A stretch of 64,000 nucleotides of DNA from Chloroflexota bacterium (lineage in GTDB: Bacteria > Chloroflexota > JAJPGV01). Numbering within the stretch: the stretch's first letter is position 1; every line of letters starts with the position of its first letter. Below the pieces are notes generated by a model. It saw nothing but the letters and a program-made list of their open reading frames with translations, searched no databases and was not told the origin of the DNA. The translations under genes and the position numbers were made by a program. Shown piece by piece: positions 3,000 through 11,892 of the stretch. The DNA lies in the NCBI GenBank assembly GCA_021325635.1, contig JAJPGV010000061.1, positions 1 to 64,000 on the forward strand, read 5' to 3'.

Positions 3000-3893
3000 T
3001 CAGATTTCCCCCGGCGGCGGGTAGTTAGTGACAATCAGCTCCGCCACTCCTCCTCGGCGATCGGCGCGGCTGTTTATCATACGATTGGCGGTCGCGACGG
3101 ACAGGTTGAAGCCCTGGTACAGCCGCCGCAGCAGCAGGGTGTCATGGTTGTTCAGCAGGAAGCGAGCGCCGCGCCGGTCGAGGTCGTGCAGCGCCTGGGC
3201 AAGCTGCACCTGATCCGATTCTTCGAATGAGTCCTTGGTGTAACGGGTGAAGTTGGCCGTCGCGCTGAGCGGCTGGTAGGGGGGATCGAGGTAAACGAAG
3301 TCCCCTGGCCCCGCCTTGGAGAGCGCGGAATCATACGATTCCACGCCGATATGCGCGTGCTGGAGCAGCTGTGAGACGCTCTTCAGGTTGGCCGGATCGA
3401 AGACGCGGGGAGGGGTCTTGTAGCGTCCGCGAGGCACGTTGAACTGACCCTTGCTGTTCACTCGATACAGGCCGTTGTAACACCACTTATTCAAATAGAT
3501 GAAGCGCGAAGCCCGGCGGACCTTGGTCAGCTCGCTCGGCTGCAGGTTGCGAACGAAGTAGTAGTGCTCTTCGGTGGGCTGGTGGCGGCTCAGGCTGGCC
3601 AGCAGCTCGTCCAGATGATCGCGTATGACCTCGTAAGCGTTGATGAGCTCTTCGTTCAGGTCGGAGAGGACGGCTCGCTGTGGCTGCAGGTGAAAGAACA
3701 CCGCGCCTCCGCCCAGGAAGGGCTCGAAGTAGCGATGGTAGGTCCCGTCAGGGGGAAAGAACGGGTCGAGCTGGCTCAGGAGCTGCCCCTTGCCGCCGGC
3801 CCATTTGACGAAGGGTGAAGCGGCGAGCCGCTGGCGAGGTGCTGCGGCGGCGGGGACGTCGTCCGTCGACACTGGCACTGCGGCCGCCTGCAT
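3000..3893 (-). CDS. dam: Dam-type DNA N6-adenine methyltransferase (D12 class)
   Basis: 297 residues, typical for the D12/Dam family (about 270-300). The AdoMet-binding motif is FVKWAGGKGQLL (residues 28-39) followed by the YFEPFLGGGAVFF region, and the catalytic DPPY motif is at 203-206. The order (motif X, motif I, recognition domain, motif IV) is alpha-class, as in E. coli Dam and M.DpnII, which methylate adenine in GATC. GATC is therefore the likely but unproven target. The first 24 residues are Ala/Pro-rich and may not be translated. The gene is transcribed just ahead of, and abuts, a PD-(D/E)XK nuclease gene, which favours a restriction-modification role over an orphan methylase. Confidence 0.9.
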   Translation of the reverse strand: MQAAAVPVSTDDVPAAAAPRQRLAASPFVKWAGGKGQLLSQLDPFFPPDGTYHRYFEPFLGGGAVFFHLQPQRAVLSDLNEELINAYEVIRDHLDELLASLSRHQPTEEHYYFVRNLQPSELTKVRRASRFIYLNKWCYNGLYRVNSKGQFNVPRGRYKTPPRVFDPANLKSVSQLLQHAHIGVESYDSALSKAGPGDFVYLDPPYQPLSATANFTRYTKDSFEESDQVQLAQALHDLDRRGARFLLNNHDTLLLRRLYQGFNLSVATANRMINSRADRRGGVAELIVTNYPPPGEI

Positions 3894-3958
3894 CGCAGCG
3901 ACTATAGCAGAGCCCCCCGCGGCGAACAGCCCAGGCTCAGCAGCGTTGGGCGGCCGTC

Positions 3959-5989
3959 TCAGGTAGCAATACGCTCCACCTCTACCTTATTAGAGAAGAA
4001 CACCGCGCCGCCGCCCATGTCGGCGATGCGGTCGGGAGTGGTTTGGTTCACGCCGCCGCCGCCGGGCATCTTGCTGGCCCACCATACGCCCTGACTCACC
4101 ACCACACCCGGCTGCACGGCGTCGGTGATGTGCGCGTACAGCTCAACGGCGCCGCGCTTGTTCCAGGCGCGCACCAGGTCGCCCTCCTGGATGCCCCGCT
4201 CGCGCGCATCGGCCGCGCTCAGCTGCAGCGTGGGGCGTCCCTCCCGTTCGATCAGCGCATCCACGCCGGCCAGGGTGGAGTTGAGGAAGTGATGATTGGG
4301 TGGGGTAACCAGCGTGAGGCCCTGGTCCGGCTCCGGCAGGGGCACGTAGGATGGCAGCGGATCGAAGCCATCCCGGGCCATTTGCTCTGAGTAGAAGAAC
4401 GTCGTGGGCACGTGCTTGCTGGGAGCGTTGAGCCGGACGACATGCTCGCGCCGCAGCCGATCGAGGGTCACGTCCTCCAGGTGGGGATTCGCGGGGAAGT
4501 CCAGCGCCTGTCGCATGATGTCCTCTGGGGAGTCGGCAAAGCATTCGTCCTCGAAGCCCATGGCGCGGGCCAGCAGCCGGAACACGTCCAGGTTGGACTT
4601 GGACTCACCCACTGGCTCAATCGCCGGCTCGGCCATGGCGGAGCGCAGGTGCCAGTAGGAGCGGTACAGGTCGGTGTGCTCCCAGGCGCTGGTCGCCGGC
4701 AGCACGACGTCGGCGTAGCGGCAGGTGTCGGTCATGACGACGTCGTGGACGGCCAGGAACAGATCCTCGCGGCTAAGGCCTCGCAGCACCTTGGCCTGGC
4801 TGGGAGCGACGGCGGCCGGGTTCGAGTTGTACACGTACATGGCCATGACGGGCGGGTCGCTCACCTCCAGCAGAGTTTTGCCCAGCTCGTTCATATTGAT
4901 CGTCCTGGGCAGGCGCCCGTGCGCCGCCCGGGGCATGAGGTCGGGCCGGGTGACGGCCATCTCGTTGAAGGCGTGGTAGCCGCTGTTGCTCTTCATGCAG
5001 CCGCCGCCTCGATGGAGCCAGGCGCCGGTAAGCGCTGGCAGGCAGGCGATATTCCGAACGCACATGCCGCCGTTGTCGTGGTGCTGGATGCCGTTGCCGA
5101 TGCGGATGAACGACGGCTGACGCGTGGCGTACTCGCGGGCCAGCCGGCGGATGTCTTCCATCGGGACGCCTGTGATGGCCGCCACGTCGCCGGGAGGATA
5201 GGCCTCGAGGCGGCTGCACAGCTCCTCGAAGCCCACCGTGTGCTCGGCAATGTACGCGGCGTCGTACAGCCTCTCGGCCACGATCACGTGCATCAGGCCG
5301 AGCGCCAGCGCCCCGTCCGTTCCGGGCTTGATGGGAATGAACCAATCCGCGGCGTCGCCGGTCTTGTTGCGGTGCACGTCGATGACGACGAAGCGAGCGC
5401 CTTTACGGCGGGCCTGCTGCACATAGGCCATCTGGTGGACGTTGGCGCTGACCAGGTTGGCGCCCCAGGCAATGATGTAGCGGGACTCGGACGTCTCTTC
5501 CGGGTCCACTCCCCTGTTGCTGCCGTTGGTGTAGCAGTAGCCCACGTTGCCGGCGATGGAGCAGATGCTGCGCAGCAGCTGTGAAGCTCCCAGCCGGTAG
5601 AAGAAACGATGGCCCACGTTGTAGTTGACGATGCCCATGGTGCCGGCGTAGCTGTAGGGCAAGATGGACTCGGCCCCGTAGCTGGCCGCCACGTCCTTGA
5701 ACCGGCCGGCGATGGTGCCGATGGCCTCGTCCCAGCCAATGGGCTCGAACGCTCCGGCGCCCTTCGGGCCGATGCGTTTCAGCGGCTGGGTGAGCCGGTT
5801 GGGGCCATGCACGCGCAGATGGTCGAAGGCTACCTTCGAGCAGATGTGGCCCCTGGTCACGGGATGGTCCGGATCGCCGCCCACGGCCACCAGCCGTCCG
5901 TCCTTCACGTAACCCAGCAGTCCGCAGGCGTCGGGGCAGTCGAAAGCGCAGATAGAGCGCCGGACGTCGTCGTAGTCCAGGCGTTTCAC
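3959..5989 (-). CDS. Molybdopterin/tungstopterin oxidoreductase, [4Fe-4S] (formate dehydrogenase-like superfamily)
   Basis: 676 residues. The N-terminus holds a [4Fe-4S] binding set Cys14-x3-Cys18-x3-Cys22 and Cys50 (ICAFDCPDACG ... GHICSK), followed by a bis-MGD catalytic domain and a C-terminal dinucleotide-binding domain (from about residue 555, ending near VNQTTPDRIADMG). This is the DMSO-reductase/formate-dehydrogenase superfamily. No Tat signal is visible, so a cytoplasmic enzyme is likely. No FeS or membrane subunit is adjacent, so it probably works alone or with an unlinked partner. The substrate cannot be assigned. The window also encodes a TupAB tungstate/molybdate uptake system and a ModE-like regulator, consistent with Mo/W cofactor supply. 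A divergent regulator gene lies 80 bp away with a perfect palindrome between them. Confidence 0.88.
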   Translation of the reverse strand: MKRLDYDDVRRSICAFDCPDACGLLGYVKDGRLVAVGGDPDHPVTRGHICSKVAFDHLRVHGPNRLTQPLKRIGPKGAGAFEPIGWDEAIGTIAGRFKDVAASYGAESILPYSYAGTMGIVNYNVGHRFFYRLGASQLLRSICSIAGNVGYCYTNGSNRGVDPEETSESRYIIAWGANLVSANVHQMAYVQQARRKGARFVVIDVHRNKTGDAADWFIPIKPGTDGALALGLMHVIVAERLYDAAYIAEHTVGFEELCSRLEAYPPGDVAAITGVPMEDIRRLAREYATRQPSFIRIGNGIQHHDNGGMCVRNIACLPALTGAWLHRGGGCMKSNSGYHAFNEMAVTRPDLMPRAAHGRLPRTINMNELGKTLLEVSDPPVMAMYVYNSNPAAVAPSQAKVLRGLSREDLFLAVHDVVMTDTCRYADVVLPATSAWEHTDLYRSYWHLRSAMAEPAIEPVGESKSNLDVFRLLARAMGFEDECFADSPEDIMRQALDFPANPHLEDVTLDRLRREHVVRLNAPSKHVPTTFFYSEQMARDGFDPLPSYVPLPEPDQGLTLVTPPNHHFLNSTLAGVDALIEREGRPTLQLSAADARERGIQEGDLVRAWNKRGAVELYAHITDAVQPGVVVSQGVWWASKMPGGGGVNQTTPDRIADMGGGAVFFSNKVEVERIAT

Positions 5990-6026
5990 GGCAATTCCGA
6001 GTATAGGTGGGCCGTGCCAGGCATCC

Positions 6027-6041
6027 CATTACCTGGTAATG
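6027..6041. promoter_or_regulatory. Palindromic operator candidate between divergent genes
   Basis: CATTACCTGGTAATG is a perfect 7-1-7 palindrome in the 80-bp gap between the molybdopterin oxidoreductase (start 5989, minus) and the BTAD regulator (start 6070, plus). Its position suits a dimeric repressor or activator acting on either promoter. The cognate factor is unknown; BTAD/OmpR-type domains usually bind direct repeats rather than palindromes. Confidence 0.45.
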
Positions 6042-6069
6042 CGAGAGGTCGGTTCATATAGTTCAGCTA

Positions 6070-9000
6070 ATGGCTGTCCGCGCACTGGGGAGCCGCAGGC
6101 CGGCCGCGCCCCTGATCTCCACGAAGATCGCCATCCCTCGAAAGAGGGGTGACGTCTTACGCCGCACGCGGCTGGTGGACGCCATCCACAACGCCATCGA
6201 CCGCCAGCTGTTCCTCGTGGTTGCGCCTGCCGGGTACGGCAAGACGACGCTGCTGGTCGACTTTGCCTCGGACAGCGACATCCCGGTGTGCTGGTATTCG
6301 CTGACCCCGCAGGACGCCGAGCCCGCGGTCTTCCTGGACTACCTCGTGGCCAGCATCGAGGCTCGCTTTCCTCGCTTCGGCGCGGAGACGCGGCGGGTCA
6401 TGGCCCAGGTTTCCAATTTCCGGACCGACGCTTTCTCGGTCGTGGCCGCGCTGATCAATGAGATCCAGGAGCGCATTCCCGAGTACTTCGCGGTCGTTCT
6501 GGACGACTACCACGAGGTCAGCGAGAGCCGCGAGATCAGCGAGCTGGTGGATGCGCTGCTGAAGCATGCGCCGGAGAACCTGCAGCTCATCGTCTCGTCG
6601 CGCACCATGCCCCACCTGCAGCTGGCGAGATTGGCCGCCTTGCGGCAGGCGGGAGGTGTGGGCGCCAACGACCTGCGCTTTACCTCCGACGAGGTCCGCG
6701 ACCTCATGCGCGAGAGCTTCGAGACCGAGCTCCCACCCAAGGTCGTGGAGGAGCTCACGCTGCGATCGGAAGGCTGGATCACAGGCATCATCCTGACCAC
6801 CCACACCATGTGGCAGGGCCTGTTCGAGAGCATGATCCAGAACTCGGGACAGGAGCAGCTCTACAGCTATCTGGCGAACGAGGTGTTCGAGCGGCAGGAC
6901 CCAGAGGTGCAGGCGTTCCTGCTGGCCACTTCAATCCTGGACGACATGGAGCCAGCCATCGCCGGAGCCCTGGCGGGGGTGAGCCGGGCGAACGAGCTGT
7001 TCGTTCAGCTGAAGGAAGGCAACCTTTTCGTCACCGAGCTACAGACCCGCAAGCGGGTCTATCGCTACCATCATCTGTTCCGCGACTTCCTTCGCGCGCG
7101 CTTGGACCGCGAAGGGCCCGACGATCGAGCTCGGTTGGAGCGCGCGGCCGGGCTTCTGTATCAGCAGCGCGGCCAGCACGAGCAGGCGATCGGCCATCTG
7201 CTGATGGCGGGCGAATTCGTCAGCGCGGCCGACTCAATCATTGCCATCGCAGAAGCGGTGTTCAACGCCGGGAGGCTGGACGCGCTCGCCCAATGGATCG
7301 ACACCCTGCCCGACGAGACTCGAACCCAGCGGCCGCGCTTGATGCTCTGGCGCGCCCAGGTCGCAATCCAGAAGGGGGAACTTCAGCTTGCGGTCACTAT
7401 CTGCCAGCGTGTCGAGGAGCATGCTCTGTCTCTCGGACAGGAGACGGAGGCGTGCGAAGCCAGGCTGCATCGTGCTGCGGCTCTGCGTCTGTTGGGAGAT
7501 ACTGAGCAGGCGGTCGAACTTTGTCAGCAGGTTCTGCAGACATTCGGCAACGAGGTCAGCCAGCGCCGGGCTTTTGCTCTCCGTGTTCTAGGCACGGCCT
7601 ACTGGCGCCTGGGAGAACTCGTGCTTTCTCGCGAGTGCGCTCTTGAGAGCCATCGCTTGTACGAGTCTCTGGGGGACAAAGCCGCTGCCGCCTATTTGCG
7701 AAACGACCTGGGTAACATTGCGAATTTTCTCGGAATGTTGGGTGAAGCCCGGCAACAGCTGGAACTCTCAGCTGCTTACTGGCGCCAGGTTGGCAACGTT
7801 GGCAGGCTTGGTCTCACTATCTCGAATCTAGGCTGGGTGGCATATCTCGAGGAGGATTACGGGGAAGCAATCCGGTTATTCGAGGAAGCTATTCGCTATG
7901 CCCAGGCCGGCTTGTTCACTTACGCCGAAGGTTTGGCGGCCTGCTCCCTGGGAGACGCATACCGTGATCTCGGCGAGTTCCGAAGGGCGGAGGCTGCATA
8001 TGACAAGGCCCACGACCTGGTACTCGAAGGTACTGACCGCGCAGAACTAGCTGTCGTCCTTAACTCAACGGCTCACAGTTATCGTCTTCAGGGTAAGCTG
8101 GCAAAGGCTGAAGGTGCGCTCCGACGGGCTCGGGCGAATGCTGCGGGGTATCGCCTCGCGCAGATTGATCTGACCAGCGGCATTTGCGCAGCGGAGCGAG
8201 GTAGCTACGCCCGCGCACTGCGGTTCTTGGAGACCGCGCTTCAATCGTTTCGGGTCGGTGGGGCGCGCTATGGCGTGGCGCGTGCGCTGTTTCACCTCGG
8301 CTTCGTCTTTTTCAAGCGCGGGGATTTGGAGCGCAGTGACGCGCTCCTCGAGGAATCGCTGTCGACATTGGAAGATCTCGGCTTCTCCCAGTTCTTCTCC
8401 GTGGATGCTCCGCGTTGCTTAGAGTTCGTCCAGCAGGCGGCGGACCGCGACATCGGAGGAGCGTTCCTGAAGACACTCCTGAACCGTGCGGTGCAGAAGC
8501 CATCGTTGCCCCGCGTCGAGCCGGCAGTCGCCTCTCAGAGCGTTGCCGGGCCTCGAATTCGAGTGCGCATGCTAGGGGCGCTGGAGGTAACCATGGATGG
8601 CCGCCAAGTTTCGCTTCGCCACTGGGGGACGCAGGCGGCGCGTGAGCTGTTTTTCTACCTGCTTCTTCACCGGGAAGGGGCGACGAAGGACAGATTGATG
8701 GACCTTCTGGCTCCGGAAGTGACTCCGTCTCGTGCGAATTCTCAGTTCCATGTGGCGGCCTATCGTCTTCGTCGGGCGCTTTACCGCGGCGCCCTGCAAT
8801 TCGATGGCACGCACTACCACCTCGATTCCGGTATGCAGCGCGAATGTGACGTAGATGTCTTTTGTGACGCGCTGGCCGCGGCAAAGAACGCCAAGCACGG
8901 CAGTGCTGAGGAAGCACTGGCGCTCCGCCGAGCCACCGAGGCCTACGGTGGCCGATTTCTCGAAGGTCTCTACTCAGAATGGATAGAGCAGGAGCAGCGC

Positions 9001-9306
9001 CGCCTGGAGAGCCAGTTCTTCGATGCCTGCAGCCGCCTTGCCTGGTCTTCTTTCCACGCAGGTGACTTTCGCGGGGCTCTGGCCACCGCAGAGCGTGCAC
9101 TCAATGAAGACGATAGCTTGCAGGATCTGCACGAGGTGGTCGTCAGGTCACTGCTGGCGCTGGATCGAAGAGGAGAAGCCACTCGACACCTGGAAGCGTA
9201 CGCCAAGTACCTGGACGAAGAGCTTGGCGCTGAGCTTCCTGAAGAGCTGCGCCGGATCCTGGATGCGGATACGGCAGGCAAGCCACGGCTGCTGCTTCGC
9301 CGTTAA
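6070..9306 (+). CDS. MalT/LuxR-like ATPase-TPR regulator with C-terminal BTAD (SARP-type) DNA-binding module
   Basis: 1078 residues. The N-terminal STAND-type NTPase has Walker A APAGYGKTT (residues 52-60) and a Walker-B-like FAVVLDDYHEV. A winged-helix/arm region and a long TPR array follow (about residues 350-800, repeated pairs such as EAIRLFEEAIRYAQ). The C-terminus, from about residue 829 (IRVRMLGALEV), is an OmpR-like winged helix followed by a bacterial transcriptional activation domain, as in SARP/AfsR regulators. TPR-STAND regulators act as ligand-gated switches (MalT). Just downstream is a small-peptide/DUF5317 operon whose upstream region has an 11-bp-spaced direct repeat of the SARP-site type, so that operon is the likely target. 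No strong Shine-Dalgarno precedes the ATG; the start is moderately certain. Confidence 0.85.
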   Translation: MAVRALGSRRPAAPLISTKIAIPRKRGDVLRRTRLVDAIHNAIDRQLFLVVAPAGYGKTTLLVDFASDSDIPVCWYSLTPQDAEPAVFLDYLVASIEARFPRFGAETRRVMAQVSNFRTDAFSVVAALINEIQERIPEYFAVVLDDYHEVSESREISELVDALLKHAPENLQLIVSSRTMPHLQLARLAALRQAGGVGANDLRFTSDEVRDLMRESFETELPPKVVEELTLRSEGWITGIILTTHTMWQGLFESMIQNSGQEQLYSYLANEVFERQDPEVQAFLLATSILDDMEPAIAGALAGVSRANELFVQLKEGNLFVTELQTRKRVYRYHHLFRDFLRARLDREGPDDRARLERAAGLLYQQRGQHEQAIGHLLMAGEFVSAADSIIAIAEAVFNAGRLDALAQWIDTLPDETRTQRPRLMLWRAQVAIQKGELQLAVTICQRVEEHALSLGQETEACEARLHRAAALRLLGDTEQAVELCQQVLQTFGNEVSQRRAFALRVLGTAYWRLGELVLSRECALESHRLYESLGDKAAAAYLRNDLGNIANFLGMLGEARQQLELSAAYWRQVGNVGRLGLTISNLGWVAYLEEDYGEAIRLFEEAIRYAQAGLFTYAEGLAACSLGDAYRDLGEFRRAEAAYDKAHDLVLEGTDRAELAVVLNSTAHSYRLQGKLAKAEGALRRARANAAGYRLAQIDLTSGICAAERGSYARALRFLETALQSFRVGGARYGVARALFHLGFVFFKRGDLERSDALLEESLSTLEDLGFSQFFSVDAPRCLEFVQQAADRDIGGAFLKTLLNRAVQKPSLPRVEPAVASQSVAGPRIRVRMLGALEVTMDGRQVSLRHWGTQAARELFFYLLLHREGATKDRLMDLLAPEVTPSRANSQFHVAAYRLRRALYRGALQFDGTHYHLDSGMQRECDVDVFCDALAAAKNAKHGSAEEALALRRATEAYGGRFLEGLYSEWIEQEQRRLESQFFDACSRLAWSSFHAGDFRGALATAERALNEDDSLQDLHEVVVRSLLALDRRGEATRHLEAYAKYLDEELGAELPEELRRILDADTAGKPRLLLRR

Positions 9307-9416
9307 GCCCACACTCACACTGCTGGGTGGTGGGACGCTACTTCCCTGCCGAGCCGAAAGTGGCATCGGCTGAGCCAAACACCGCGTTCCGTGCTCCGCG
9401 CGCCCCCGCGGATTTC

Positions 9417-9451
9417 TTGTAAGTGATTTGTAAGTGGTAGAGGCCTACGCT
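9417..9451 (+). promoter_or_regulatory. 11-bp direct repeat (SARP-site-like) and -10 upstream of peptide operon
   Basis: TTGTAAGTGAT (9417-9427) is followed immediately by TTGTAAGTGGT (9428-9438), an almost perfect 11-bp direct repeat, one helical turn each. A -10-like TACGCT lies at 9446-9451. SARP/BTAD activators typically bind heptamer repeats with 11-bp periodicity close to the -10 in place of a good -35. The gene immediately upstream encodes a BTAD regulator, and the site is 45 bp ahead of the first small gene. Assignment of the regulator to the site is inference. Confidence 0.55.
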
Positions 9452-9482
9452 GAGCCCAACTTAAACAAAAAGGGGGTTCCAA

Positions 9483-9584
9483 ATGCGCAGGTTCAAATCG
9501 GTCTATTACGCAGTTGCTGGCGTTCTCTTTGGCCTCGTCGCCCTGGTGGCGGCAATCGGTGCCGATTCTGGCGCGGGACCGTAA
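9483..9584 (+). CDS. 33-residue hydrophobic peptide (putative secreted or membrane signal)
   Basis: ATG at 9483, preceded by a strong purine-rich Shine-Dalgarno (AAAAAGGGGG, 9467-9476, 6 nt spacing), and TAA at 9582-9584. The peptide has a basic head (MRRFKSVYY), a single hydrophobic helix of about 18 residues (AVAGVLFGLVALVAAIG) and a small polar tail (ADSGAGP). It looks like a short membrane peptide or a leader whose tail could be released. It is too short for most gene finders, and the next gene begins 11 nt later. The ribosome-binding site, the coherent amino-acid pattern and the position as first gene of a promoter-bearing operon all support translation. No homologous family is recognised; function is unknown. 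Confidence 0.6.
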   Translation: MRRFKSVYYAVAGVLFGLVALVAAIGADSGAGP

Positions 9585-9595
9585 CTAAAGACCGA

Positions 9596-10201
9596 ATGGT
9601 CCTACCCCTTCTGTTTTCCATCGTTCCGGCCTTGATTGCCGGTCTGCTTCTCCGCGGGCGGCTGAGCGGAATCGCGCAGTTGCAGCTGAAGTGGATGTGG
9701 CTTGTCCTGGCCGGATTGATGGTGCAGATAGTGGCGATGGGATACGTCGGCCGGAGTTGGTCCTTCGCGGCTGACCACCGGCCGGCGATCATCATCGGCA
9801 CGTACCTGGCAGTGCTCGCGGGCCTGATCCGCAACTTTCGCGTCCCGGGAATGGCGGTGGTCGCTCTCGGGTTCGCACTCAACTTCGCTGCTATCGTCGC
9901 CAACGGCGGGCAGATGCCCGTGACCCGCGACATCATCGAGGCTTCGGGTCAATCGTGGCTCATTGATGGCACACAATCTGGCGAGCCGGTGTGGCAATCC
10001 AAAGACGTGCTCCTGCCGAAAGAGGACACACGTTTGTGGGTGCTCACCGACATCTTCATTACCCCTCCGCCGGTGCGCCGCGCGGCGGCCATCGGTGACT
10101 TCGTTACGTACGCCGGTGTGGGCTTGCTGATCGTCTTCGCCATGAAAAGGGCGCAGGCGGATCGACCTTCTGCACCGGTAACCGCATCTGTCACCGCTTG
10201 A
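9596..10201 (+). CDS. DUF5317-family integral membrane protein
   Basis: I place the start at ATG 9596 (MVLPLLFSIVPALIAGLLLRG), giving 201 residues. The frame is open back to 9434, but that extension would run through the 33-residue peptide gene and is Arg/Trp-rich noise. Features fit DUF5317: an N-terminal helix ending GLLLRGRLSG, further helices (MWLVLAGLMVQIVAM, IIIGTYLAVLAGLI), a conserved LNFAAIVANGGQMPVT segment, a KEDTRLWVLTDIF patch and a final helix after SIGD-like AIGDFVTYAGVG. The family is membrane-embedded and of unknown function. It lies between the hydrophobic peptide gene and the NHLP-leader-like gene, which suggests handling, export or sensing of small peptides; that role is inference. 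Confidence 0.75.
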   Translation: MVLPLLFSIVPALIAGLLLRGRLSGIAQLQLKWMWLVLAGLMVQIVAMGYVGRSWSFAADHRPAIIIGTYLAVLAGLIRNFRVPGMAVVALGFALNFAAIVANGGQMPVTRDIIEASGQSWLIDGTQSGEPVWQSKDVLLPKEDTRLWVLTDIFITPPPVRRAAAIGDFVTYAGVGLLIVFAMKRAQADRPSAPVTASVTA

Positions 10202-10230
10202 CTTTGACATTTGATAAGGAAAGTCTCGAT

Positions 10231-10530
10231 ATGAGATTTCTCGACGAGCCCCTCCCGGTCATGAGTGATGACCTGCAAGCCGTTGTGGGCATGGCCATCG
10301 TCGACCGTTCGTTCCAACGAGATCTGCTGGCAAATCCACGAAAAGCCATCGAGCACCTGGATCTGTGCACGGCCGACCGGCGTGCCGCCGCTGCCATCAC
10401 CGGTGCGCAATCGCTGGCGGAGTACGCTCTGCGTCTCGAGCAGCGCGTACTGGGTGTCGACCATCGCAACCGTGTAGCGGTCCGGCGGTCGCACGGCCTA
10501 TCCACACAGCCGGTGCTTGTTGCCAGCTGA
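10231..10530 (+). CDS. Small NHLP-leader-like protein (Os1348/Franean1_4349 type), possible RiPP precursor
   Basis: ATG at 10231 with Shine-Dalgarno AAGGAAA (10216-10222, 8-nt spacing) gives 99 residues; an upstream TTG overlapping the DUF5317 stop is less likely. Residues about 15-75 (LQAVVGMAIVDRSFQRDLLANP, split here: LQAVVGMAIVD then RSFQRDLLANP, followed by an Ala-rich helix and SLAEYALRLEQRV) resemble the helical leader of the nitrile-hydratase-like NHLP/Os1348 clan. In that clan this domain is the leader of ribosomally made, modified peptides, or stands alone as a small acidic protein. The C-terminal 24 residues are basic, with Ser/Thr but no Cys, and could be a core peptide. No LanM, radical-SAM or YcaO modifying enzyme is adjacent, so RiPP status is speculative. 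Confidence 0.55.
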   Translation: MRFLDEPLPVMSDDLQAVVGMAIVDRSFQRDLLANPRKAIEHLDLCTADRRAAAAITGAQSLAEYALRLEQRVLGVDHRNRVAVRRSHGLSTQPVLVAS

Positions 10531-10562
10531 TCCATCTTCAAACCGCTAATCTTCCCCCCAAC

Positions 10563-10601
10563 GAGAAGGCCCGGGCTCCCCAACCGGGCCTTCTCCCTTT
10601 T
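10563..10601 (+). terminator. Strong intrinsic terminator after the peptide operon
   Basis: A perfect 12-bp stem, GAGAAGGCCCGG (10563-10574) pairing with CCGGGCCTTCTC (10584-10595), has a 9-nt loop and is followed by CCCTTTT. It closes the 9483-10530 operon and isolates it from the sigma-factor promoter. Confidence 0.9.
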
Positions 10602-10723
10602 GTAAGGACAGCTGTCGATGGCCGACGTAGGTTTTCCATCCGCGATACTTACCGCAAGGTAACCACTAGGCAAGCTGGTCCTGCGGTGCTATGCTCTGGC
10701 GGCAAGGCTGCATACGCGTAGCG

Positions 10724-10752
10724 TTGACATAAGAGCCGCGTGTTGCGATAGT
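10724..10752 (+). promoter_or_regulatory. Sigma-70-type promoter upstream of the primary sigma factor
   Basis: A consensus -35 TTGACA (10724-10729), a 17-bp spacer and a -10 GATAGT (10747-10752) lie 66 bp ahead of the sigma-factor ATG and after the upstream terminator. Confidence 0.65.
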
Positions 10753-10818
10753 CTTGCCAGACGCCTTAGCACTTTTCCCGCTGATACCTGGATCACACTG
10801 GGGTGAACAAGGACGGGC

Positions 10819-11892
10819 ATGAGGACGAGCGTAGTCGCTGAACCCGATCAGCCAGAAGCGGTTGGTCATAGTCTGCACGTCGAGCTAAGCGAGGTCCCAA
10901 AGCATCTAGACGCCGATTGGGCCGATCCCGTTATCGCGGATTGGTCGGCCAAGATCGCCGACGATGCTCACGTCCTCGCCGAGCACAGTCCGGTGGTGGA
11001 GCTGGATCGCGAAGATCTCGACGACTCCGTCCGCCTGTACTTGCGGGAGATCAGCAAGGTGGCCCTCCTCACCGCAGAGCAGGAGGTCGACCTGGCGCAG
11101 AAGATCGAGCGCGGCGAAATGGAGCTCGACAAAGGCGCCGAACCCGATCCGCAAATCATGTCCGAAGCCGAAGGCTCGCGCAGGCATCTCACCGAAGCGA
11201 ACCTTCGGCTCGTTGTTTCTGTGGCCAAGAAGTACGTGGGCCGTGGCATGTCGCTGCTGGACCTGATCCAGGAAGGGAACATCGGCCTCATCCGCGCCGT
11301 CGAGAAATTCGATTACCACCGCGGCTACAAGTTCAGCACGTACGCTACGTGGTGGATCCGCCAGGCGGTAAGCCGTGCTCTGGCTGACCATGCGCGCACG
11401 ATACGCATCCCCGTGCACATGGTCGAGACGATGAGCAAGTTCAATCGTTCGGCGCGCAATCTGCTCCAGGAGCTCGGTCGCGAGCCGACAGCGCAAGAGA
11501 TCGCCAATGAAATGGAGATCTCGGTCGACAAGGTGCGGGAAATCATCCGCATCTTCCGCGAGCCGATGTCGCTCGAAGCGCCCATCGGCGAGGAAGAGGA
11601 CAGCTCGCTGGGCGACTTCATCGAGGACCGCGGCTCGCTGAGCCCGGTGGACGCGGCATCCCGTCAGCTGCTCAAGGAGCAGATCTCCGAAGTGCTCGAC
11701 TCGCTGACCAGCCGAGAGCGCAAGGTGCTCGAGCTGCGCTTCGGGCTGGAGGATGGCCGCAACCGGACCCTGGAAGAGATCGGCCGGGAGTTCTCAGTGA
11801 CGCGAGAGCGGATCCGGCAAATCGAGGCTGAGGCGCTACAGAAACTGCGCCATCCGAGCCGCTCCCGCAAGCTCAAAGACTACTTGGAGTAG
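10819..11892 (+). CDS. rpoD: RNA polymerase primary sigma factor (RpoD/SigA)
   Basis: 357 residues. Region 1.2 is [16 protein letters not shown], region 2 includes [17 protein letters not shown] and the -10 recognition segment [16 protein letters not shown], region 3 follows ([11 protein letters not shown]), and region 4.2 is the helix-turn-helix [20 protein letters not shown]. The short Asp/Glu-rich N-terminus without a full region 1.1 is like SigA of many Gram-positive and Chloroflexota lineages, where the length is 350-400. It directs housekeeping transcription. It is probably monocistronic behind its own TTGACA/GATAGT promoter. The ATG lacks a strong Shine-Dalgarno, but the frame begins cleanly there. 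A second primary-like sigma factor elsewhere cannot be excluded. Confidence 0.95.

Follow-up and report, generated by a model that had tools for sequence, protein, structure and literature searches.

The window, a 64,000-nt stretch of a Chloroflexota bacterium genome (contig JAJPGV010000061.1), carries between positions 6070 and 10601 four co-directional genes. They encode a 1078-residue ATPase-type regulator, a 33-residue hydrophobic peptide, a membrane protein of the DUF5317 family and a 99-residue Os1348-like protein. All four had been proposed in an earlier note on this DNA and were confirmed (Table 1). Judged from sequence comparisons, the peptide-DUF5317-regulator locus is probably an undescribed peptide-signalling module, because its genes stay together across much of Chloroflexota and the peptide and DUF5317 recur beside cyclic di-GMP (c-di-GMP) enzymes in about six other phyla.

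Related loci were collected by DUF5317 searches of the genomes of the phylum and of a named genome collection, the nearest relatives of the window lineage being compared at the phylum level (no closer genome was among those compared). The order regulator, peptide, DUF5317, Os1348-like gene was found in at least 22 named Chloroflexota loci besides the window (L077, L078, L080, L081, L084, L086-L090, L092, L094, L101, L109, L118, L124, L125, L133, L140, L150, L154 and L156), and in about ten further loci from a second genome collection. Genome titles among the conserved loci include Anaerolineae, Chloroflexus and Herpetosiphon metagenome-assembled genomes (MAGs). The earlier note had named a lack of conservation of the peptide open reading frame (ORF) or of the gene order as grounds for dropping its proposal; both are kept. 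Regulator orthologues adjoining DUF5317 are full-length across families (E 1e-68 to 1e-194), while paralogues within the window's own genome are only partial (best 2e-18), and the regulator therefore travels with the operon. Variant loci, including the SAR202 contig L126, showed no detectable Os1348-like gene or regulator. Regulator orthologues without an adjacent DUF5317 gene keep a small hydrophobic peptide ORF downstream (L194, L195, L197, L198, L210, L215, L216 and L218), together with an Os1348-like gene in L195, L197, L210, L215 and L216, or with a response regulator, assigned by sequence reading only, in L198 and L218.

No Pfam or NCBIfam family matched the window peptide, and the 37 peptides of the family gave no convincing match in Pfam. 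A hidden Markov model (HMM) built from these 37 peptides was searched over 400 genomes. Matches at E<1e-4 lay within 2.5 kb of DUF5317 or a regulator orthologue in 27 of 29 cases, and many came from outside the model (G159, G296, G331, G247, G396, G079, G376, G168, G358, G300, G386 and G215). With the window peptide left out of the model, it ranked first of 1633 six-frame segments, at an E value of only 0.019. Family members are preceded by a ribosome site and begin with basic residues, followed by a hydrophobic core, a conserved A-P (A-D in the window) and a short tail. Similar pairs and tandem copies differ by 64, 42 and 129 changes at the first, second and third codon positions, and the tandem pair of L156 shows 11 synonymous versus 3 non-synonymous codon differences. 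By these patterns the peptide is a real gene family under selection as a protein. A gene of 25-50 aa is easily overlooked in annotation. Two to three tandem copies occur in L083, L090, L156, L095, L108, L211 and L255; in L211 (4888-5834, G386), three distinct small hydrophobic peptide ORFs stand in a row between the regulator and DUF5317.

After the hydrophobic core, the peptides carry an [A/G]-x-G/A-P motif with a putative cut between G and A. Around the conserved alanine, position -3 is A, G or S in 37/37 peptides and position -1 is G, A or T in 36/37, while position -2 admits V and I. The motif resembles a type I signal-peptidase site, cleavage of which would leave a tail of 6-18 aa. The predicted tail is ADSGAGP in the window; most others have 6-14 aa and mostly start with A-P, or with A-N in the HD-GYP type described below. 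A different reading of the same core and basic N-terminus is a micro-protein that stays in the membrane as a permanent single-pass subunit associated with DUF5317 and adjusts some function of the membrane or envelope, for example in a sensor complex serving the HD-GYP or STAND output; nothing would be secreted. We regard this reading as doubtful: it accords with the tight peptide-DUF5317 linkage in two architectures, with the very short tails (5-9 aa) of the HD-GYP type and with a glycine/alanine-rich end that could pack against helices, but the A/G/S-x-G/A pattern, with its free middle position and divergent tail, has the look of a cleavage site, and two or three tandem copies are commoner among secreted signals than among stoichiometric subunits.

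Two further groups of loci show peptides in other settings. L256 (G018) contains two near-identical peptides 3.5 kb apart (4641-4760 and 8118-8237), one divergent from the regulator and the other before DUF5317, whose tails NDWPGG and NDWPGP differ in the last residue. In L250, L251 and L252 (G246, G295 and G026, one family), a peptide with the tail ANW, AQW or ANF lies beside response-regulator-like genes, at a distance of about 2.1-2.2 kb from a DUF5317 gene that runs in the opposite direction; a STAND-SARP regulator was not detected.

The pairing of peptide and DUF5317 extends to a second architecture. When a broader peptide HMM was applied to 51 other DUF5317 loci, 31 contained a related peptide ORF on the same strand at a near-constant 1.35-1.72 kb before DUF5317; among the other 20, 11 are truncated where the contig or locus ends. 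These peptides, 25-58 aa long depending on the chosen start, have a core and a tail such as ANFSWL or ANIRWG. They were found in seven phyla, namely Bacillota (for example Thermoanaerobacter wiegelii, Caloranaerobacter azorensis and Fervidicola), Bipolaricaulota, Aerophobetes, Atribacterota, Armatimonadota, one genome labelled Calditrichales, and Chloroflexota (two). The gene between peptide and DUF5317, which the peptide immediately precedes, encodes about 410-510 aa and is a MASE9-HD-GYP gene in 5/5 loci tested (L153, L121, L097, L093 and L141), with MASE9 below the cut-off in some; the Chloroflexota variant L254 has a histidine kinase instead. A DUF5317 tree separates 30 regulator-type rows, including the window on a long branch, from 31 HD-GYP-type rows by a branch with support 91/92. 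In the Anaerolineaceae-type regulator loci L101, L150 and L125, a PAS/GAF-HD-GYP gene follows the Os1348-like gene, and c-di-GMP thus recurs on both sides of the divide; no HD-GYP gene was identified next to the window operon. Because the pairing outlasts exchange of the output module, peptide and DUF5317 seem to form the core and the output module to be exchangeable.

Two further explanations were weighed. Shared regulation only, with the SARP regulator controlling an envelope-related operon whose parts have unrelated jobs, would fit the lack of a demonstrated biochemical link and the different output genes between clades, but we consider it very improbable given that the peptide-DUF5317 linkage survives a complete change of regulatory partner. 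A toxin reading, in which the hydrophobic peptide is toxic and DUF5317 confers immunity or acts like an antitoxin, is suggested by the resemblance of small basic, hydrophobic peptides to membrane toxins and by the nearby membrane protein in most loci. Conserved SARP- or HD-GYP-linked control is, however, unlike a toxin-antitoxin layout, and a 1.3-kb gene separates peptide and DUF5317 in the HD-GYP type, so that such a pair appears scarcely credible.

Other arrangements were observed among the DUF5317 loci. In L106 (7592-7652) and L155 (7648-7717), a peptide-like ORF (AGGAGNKWG and SSGAFFKWG, respectively) lies just after DUF5317 rather than before it, and a 424-aa gene comes next in L155, an apparent permutation of the order. 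Loci of the HD-GYP architecture often have, ahead of the peptide, a gene of about 210 aa with a recurring '...EEIHILxxxxRxPKQxxRD'-like segment (L121:4861-5490, L119:4857-5492, L153:4841-5491, L131:1377-2027, L138:1873-2529 and L141:30-668). It may be a further part of this operon type; that of L121, the only one tested, had no Pfam match. Neither the peptide nor the upstream gene of about 420 aa was found by DUF5317 in L149 (Geobacillus thermodenitrificans) and L142 (Paenibacillus); in these two, the partner of DUF5317 may have been lost or replaced.

In the window, the N-terminal half of the regulator is MalT-like (NCBIfam PRK04841, E 6e-81, residues 15-524, below the equivalog cut-off). Tetratricopeptide repeats (TPRs) match TPR_12 (E 1.5e-32), BTAD lies at residues 926-1063 (E 2e-14), and an AfsR/SARP model spans residues 818-1068; the winged helix-turn-helix (HTH) gave no match to its own Pfam model. 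Published SARP target promoters contain repeats 11 or 22 bp apart, the last one 8 bp before the -10 element (PMC10936776, PMC4393881). The 11-bp direct repeat that had been reported at the window promoter is indeed there (TTGTAAGTGAT/TTGTAAGTGGT at 9417-9438, 10/11 identical). Its 20-bp pair TTGTAAGTG-AT-TTGTAAGTG (9417-9436) is the sole match in the 4.64-Mb genome, even when three mismatches are allowed, and the regulator therefore seems dedicated to the peptide operon.

To see how far this geometry extends, 36 upstream regions were searched for 9-bp direct repeats with at least 8/9 matches at 11 or 12 bp, with shuffled controls. Such repeats occurred at 23/36 loci (shuffles: mean 0.67, maximum 2), and perfect 9-bp repeats at 18/36 (shuffles: mean 0.02); other spacings gave 0-5 of the 36. 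A TAnnnT sequence follows the repeat after 8-9 nt in 15 of the 23 repeat-bearing loci. The spacing is 12 bp in Anaerolineaceae-type loci, and the repeat word varies by clade (GTAAGTG, GTGAGTG, GAAGCCT) while the geometry is constant, as expected because the regulator would co-evolve with its site. The four-gene order is conserved and most orthologous loci show this SARP promoter geometry, so it is very probable that the operon is switched by the regulator beside it; this strengthens the earlier proposal that the regulator may turn the operon on. The GC-rich word CCCCGCGGAYTT, found upstream of the window operon and of L003, was also considered as an operator and rejected, being not enriched in the genome or window and missing from most loci; what the loci have in common is the repeat at 11-12 bp.

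The DUF5317 assignment is firm (PF17248, E 3e-29, 102 bits against a gathering score of 25), and the predicted model is confident (pLDDT 87), with five long helices. Invariant residues comprise W33, Q42, N78, N94, ANGG, MP, K134, D150 and GD168; a positive-inside reading would place most of them outside, in the stretch that joins helices four and five. Two invariant aspartates about 18 residues apart (D150 and GD168), with an FSxGDxxIxxGxxLL motif, had raised the idea of an LspA-like aspartyl peptidase (signal peptidase II). This candidate was rejected and survives only as an idea, hhalign giving a probability of 2.7% to Peptidase_A8 and Foldseek no LspA.

The 99-residue protein matches the Os1348-type family NF038399 of the NHLP clan (E 1.3e-5, 25 bits, below the curated cut-off of 40), as do all 16 aligned homologues (best 5e-16), while the true NHLP leader model gave weak matches in only 4/16 homologues. 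The predicted model is a helical bundle (pLDDT 82) whose top Foldseek matches are Os1348 (6LK7), borosin methyltransferase/precursor chains and nitrile hydratase alpha; this likeness is suggestive only, because all E values exceed 1. The NF038399 match and a distant Frankia_peptide similarity could indicate a bacteriocin cluster or one for a ribosomally synthesised and post-translationally modified peptide (RiPP), in which the protein would be the precursor and the operon would make a modified peptide. The related regulator locus L200, whose regulator is followed by a Cys-rich, precursor-like ORF and the beginning of an ABC transporter, points the same way. An NHLP RiPP precursor, however, combines a leader with a core and a nearby maturase. 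Many orthologues end soon past the conserved domain, with no core peptide and no conserved Cys/Ser/Thr, and no RiPP-maturation gene was recognised among the annotated neighbours. We thus judge a RiPP cluster highly unlikely; the modified peptide suggested in the earlier note loses its footing, and the protein was rejected as a RiPP precursor on account of the coreless orthologues and the weak leader match. In L200 itself (3563-3897, G366), the regulator orthologue precedes a 38-aa Cys/Gly-rich precursor-like ORF ending LCCGVGCGGGLK and then an ABC-transporter-like gene start, at which the contig ends. This may be a case in which a regulator of the same type has a bacteriocin- or RiPP-like output.

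Taken as a signalling operon, the locus would work as follows. First, the STAND-TPR-SARP protein would bind the paired repeats and recruit RNA polymerase, so that the operon is transcribed, a step well supported by sequence. Secondly, the 33-residue pre-peptide would be exported and cut at the conserved signal-peptidase-like site, leaving a short C-terminal peptide. Thirdly, as the pairing across phyla suggests, DUF5317 would handle the peptide at the membrane, whether by processing, exporting or anchoring it or as a subunit of a receptor. Finally, the peptide or its state would be sensed by the co-encoded output module, which in Chloroflexota would be the TPR part of the STAND activator, with feedback, positive or negative, as the outcome; elsewhere, a c-di-GMP phosphodiesterase of the MASE9-HD-GYP type would take this place. 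An intracellular accessory role is proposed for the Os1348-type protein, which is less likely to be the precursor of a peptide than to have a binding or adaptor function. The comparisons support the conserved operon, the dedicated SARP-type promoter, the translated peptide and its lasting pairing with DUF5317; from these we infer export and trimming, handling by DUF5317, sensing by STAND-TPR or MASE9, and feedback. The suggestion that a peptide signal is made or sensed is plausible. That the locus is a small autoregulated peptide-signalling operon, in which the peptide, handled by DUF5317, feeds the STAND-SARP activator or the HD-GYP enzyme, we hold to be about evenly balanced. The broader proposal, in which mini-peptides with A-P or A-N tails, DUF5317 and exchangeable outputs (STAND-TPR-SARP, MASE9-HD-GYP) form one undescribed signalling family in about seven phyla, is put forward more tentatively.

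Several points weigh against peptide signalling. The window peptide is divergent, with A-D in place of A-P and the modest leave-one-out score given above, and the same residues would equally suit an uncut single-pass membrane peptide. Strong repeats are missing from 13/36 promoters, and many loci come from related genomes and MAG-rich collections, so that the counts are not independent. The cassette has no dedicated exporter or importer; in favour of signalling, the window's own genome contains seven SBP_bac_5 (oligopeptide-binding protein) matches. Peptide binding by these TPRs is assumed by analogy with other TPR regulators. The DUF5317 model has no fold relative in the PDB (best Foldseek E 1.4), and the family is absent from the open-access literature searched, where absence is no proof; its handling of the peptide is guilt by association for these two reasons.

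Table 1. Positions and supporting evidence for the elements of the locus
Feature	Position	Strand	Basis
STAND (MalT-like) ATPase-TPR-C-terminal SARP (winged HTH + BTAD) activator, 1078 aa	6070..9306	+	profile matches; Walker A GYGKTTLL
Operator-like direct repeat TTGTAAGTG-AT-TTGTAAGTG-GT, period 11 bp	9417..9438	+	single genome occurrence; counterparts in other loci
Candidate -10 element TACGCT, 9 nt past second repeat	9446..9451	+	spacing shared with other loci; inferred
33-aa peptide MRRFKSVYYAVAGVLFGLVALVAAIGADSGAGP; predicted cut between AIG and ADSGAGP	9483..9584	+	peptide HMM, alignment
DUF5317 membrane protein, 201 aa, five predicted long helices	9596..10201	+	Pfam, model; topology inferred (positive-inside)
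Os1348-family (NHLP-clan) helical protein, 99 aa	10231..10530	+	NCBIfam match to NF038399, predicted model
Intrinsic-terminator-like hairpin, perfect 12-bp stem then CCTTTT	10563..10600	+	sequence; weaker by scanner

Of the ribosome sites claimed earlier for all three operon genes, those of the peptide gene (AAGGGGG) and of the last gene (AAGGAAAG) are clear, and that of DUF5317 did not stand. Translation of DUF5317 is more likely coupled to that of the peptide gene, because its ATG lacks a good Shine-Dalgarno sequence and lies 11 nt past the peptide stop codon. The perfect terminator noted before was recovered as a 12-bp stem pairing 10563-10574 with 10584-10595, though the CCTTTT that follows is a weak U-run and a terminator scanner gave only a 6-pair stem. 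An Rfam-type search of 5900-10900 found no riboswitch or other known RNA family. The locus is flanked downstream by a sigma-70-type factor gene and upstream by a divergent molybdopterin oxidoreductase gene, neither of which was seen to recur with the cassette.

If the module functions as proposed, DUF5317 gains a first function, peptide signals become linked to c-di-GMP and to SARP activators, and the system is open to study with synthetic peptides in the culturable T. wiegelii and C. azorensis. Peptide signalling is well described in Bacillota and, to our knowledge, hardly known in Chloroflexota, Bipolaricaulota, Atribacterota and related deep lineages. No paper in the open-access literature searched joins Chloroflexi, SARP, tetratricopeptide and peptide, although absence there is no proof. 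SARP regulators, an RRNPP-like layout and HD-GYP enzymes are known kinds of parts; their combination and the peptide family seem undescribed.

Among known systems, MASE9-HD-GYP c-di-GMP phosphodiesterases, whose genes in other phyla stand immediately between those of the related peptide and of DUF5317, differ from the window, which has a transcription activator as its output. Os1348 of Pseudomonas sp. Os17 (PDB 6LK7) belongs to the same NCBIfam family as the 99-residue protein and is its top, non-significant Foldseek match. It lies in a putative bacteriocin/efflux cluster (PMC7726476), and its neighbours differ, including neither a SARP regulator nor DUF5317.

The layout is like that of the RRNPP systems (PlcR-PapR, Rap-Phr, AimR-AimP), in which a TPR regulator gene stands beside one for a small pre-peptide of exported type, with the signal expected in its C-terminal residues. 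Tandemly duplicated pro-peptides, as seen here, are known in RRNPP systems (PMC11343458). Their receptors are defined as TPR proteins of 250-500 aa, in a survey that covers Firmicutes and viruses and leaves Chloroflexi unmentioned (PMC10075063). The window receptor, in contrast, has 1078 aa with a STAND ATPase and a SARP unit, and DUF5317 and Os1348-like genes are added. The adjacent 33-aa ORF falls within the 10-100 aa of RRNPP pre-peptides, and its motif fits their Sec-type signal by sequence alone. RRNPP peptides are imported and bound by the TPR part; on that side, the window's genome shows the SBP_bac_5 proteins. Peptide signalling with exopolysaccharide induction is reported for Thermotoga maritima in work cited by PMC6022435 and PMC3022713, and a homology-based survey of thermophiles found no complete peptide system (PMC6022435). 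T. maritima encodes a DUF5317 protein; a link of its signalling peptide to the present family is a lead only.

The regulator itself resembles in composition AfsR and other large SARPs of Streptomyces, with which it shares a STAND ATPase, TPRs, a winged HTH-BTAD unit and a two-repeat target promoter. In Streptomyces, afsS is a small gene next to afsR. AfsR activates it, and AfsR-type target promoters have two direct repeats 11 bp apart, the 3′ repeat about 8 bp before the -10 element (PMC10936776), compared with 11 bp and 9 nt in the window and a spacing of 11 or 12 bp across the related loci. Unlike AfsR, whose SARP unit is N-terminal, the window regulator has a MalT-like N-terminal half and its SARP part at 818-1068, and because of this C-terminal position we regard it as a variant rather than an AfsR orthologue. 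Its target is a membrane or secreted-type peptide with DUF5317 and an Os1348-like protein instead of afsS, in another phylum.

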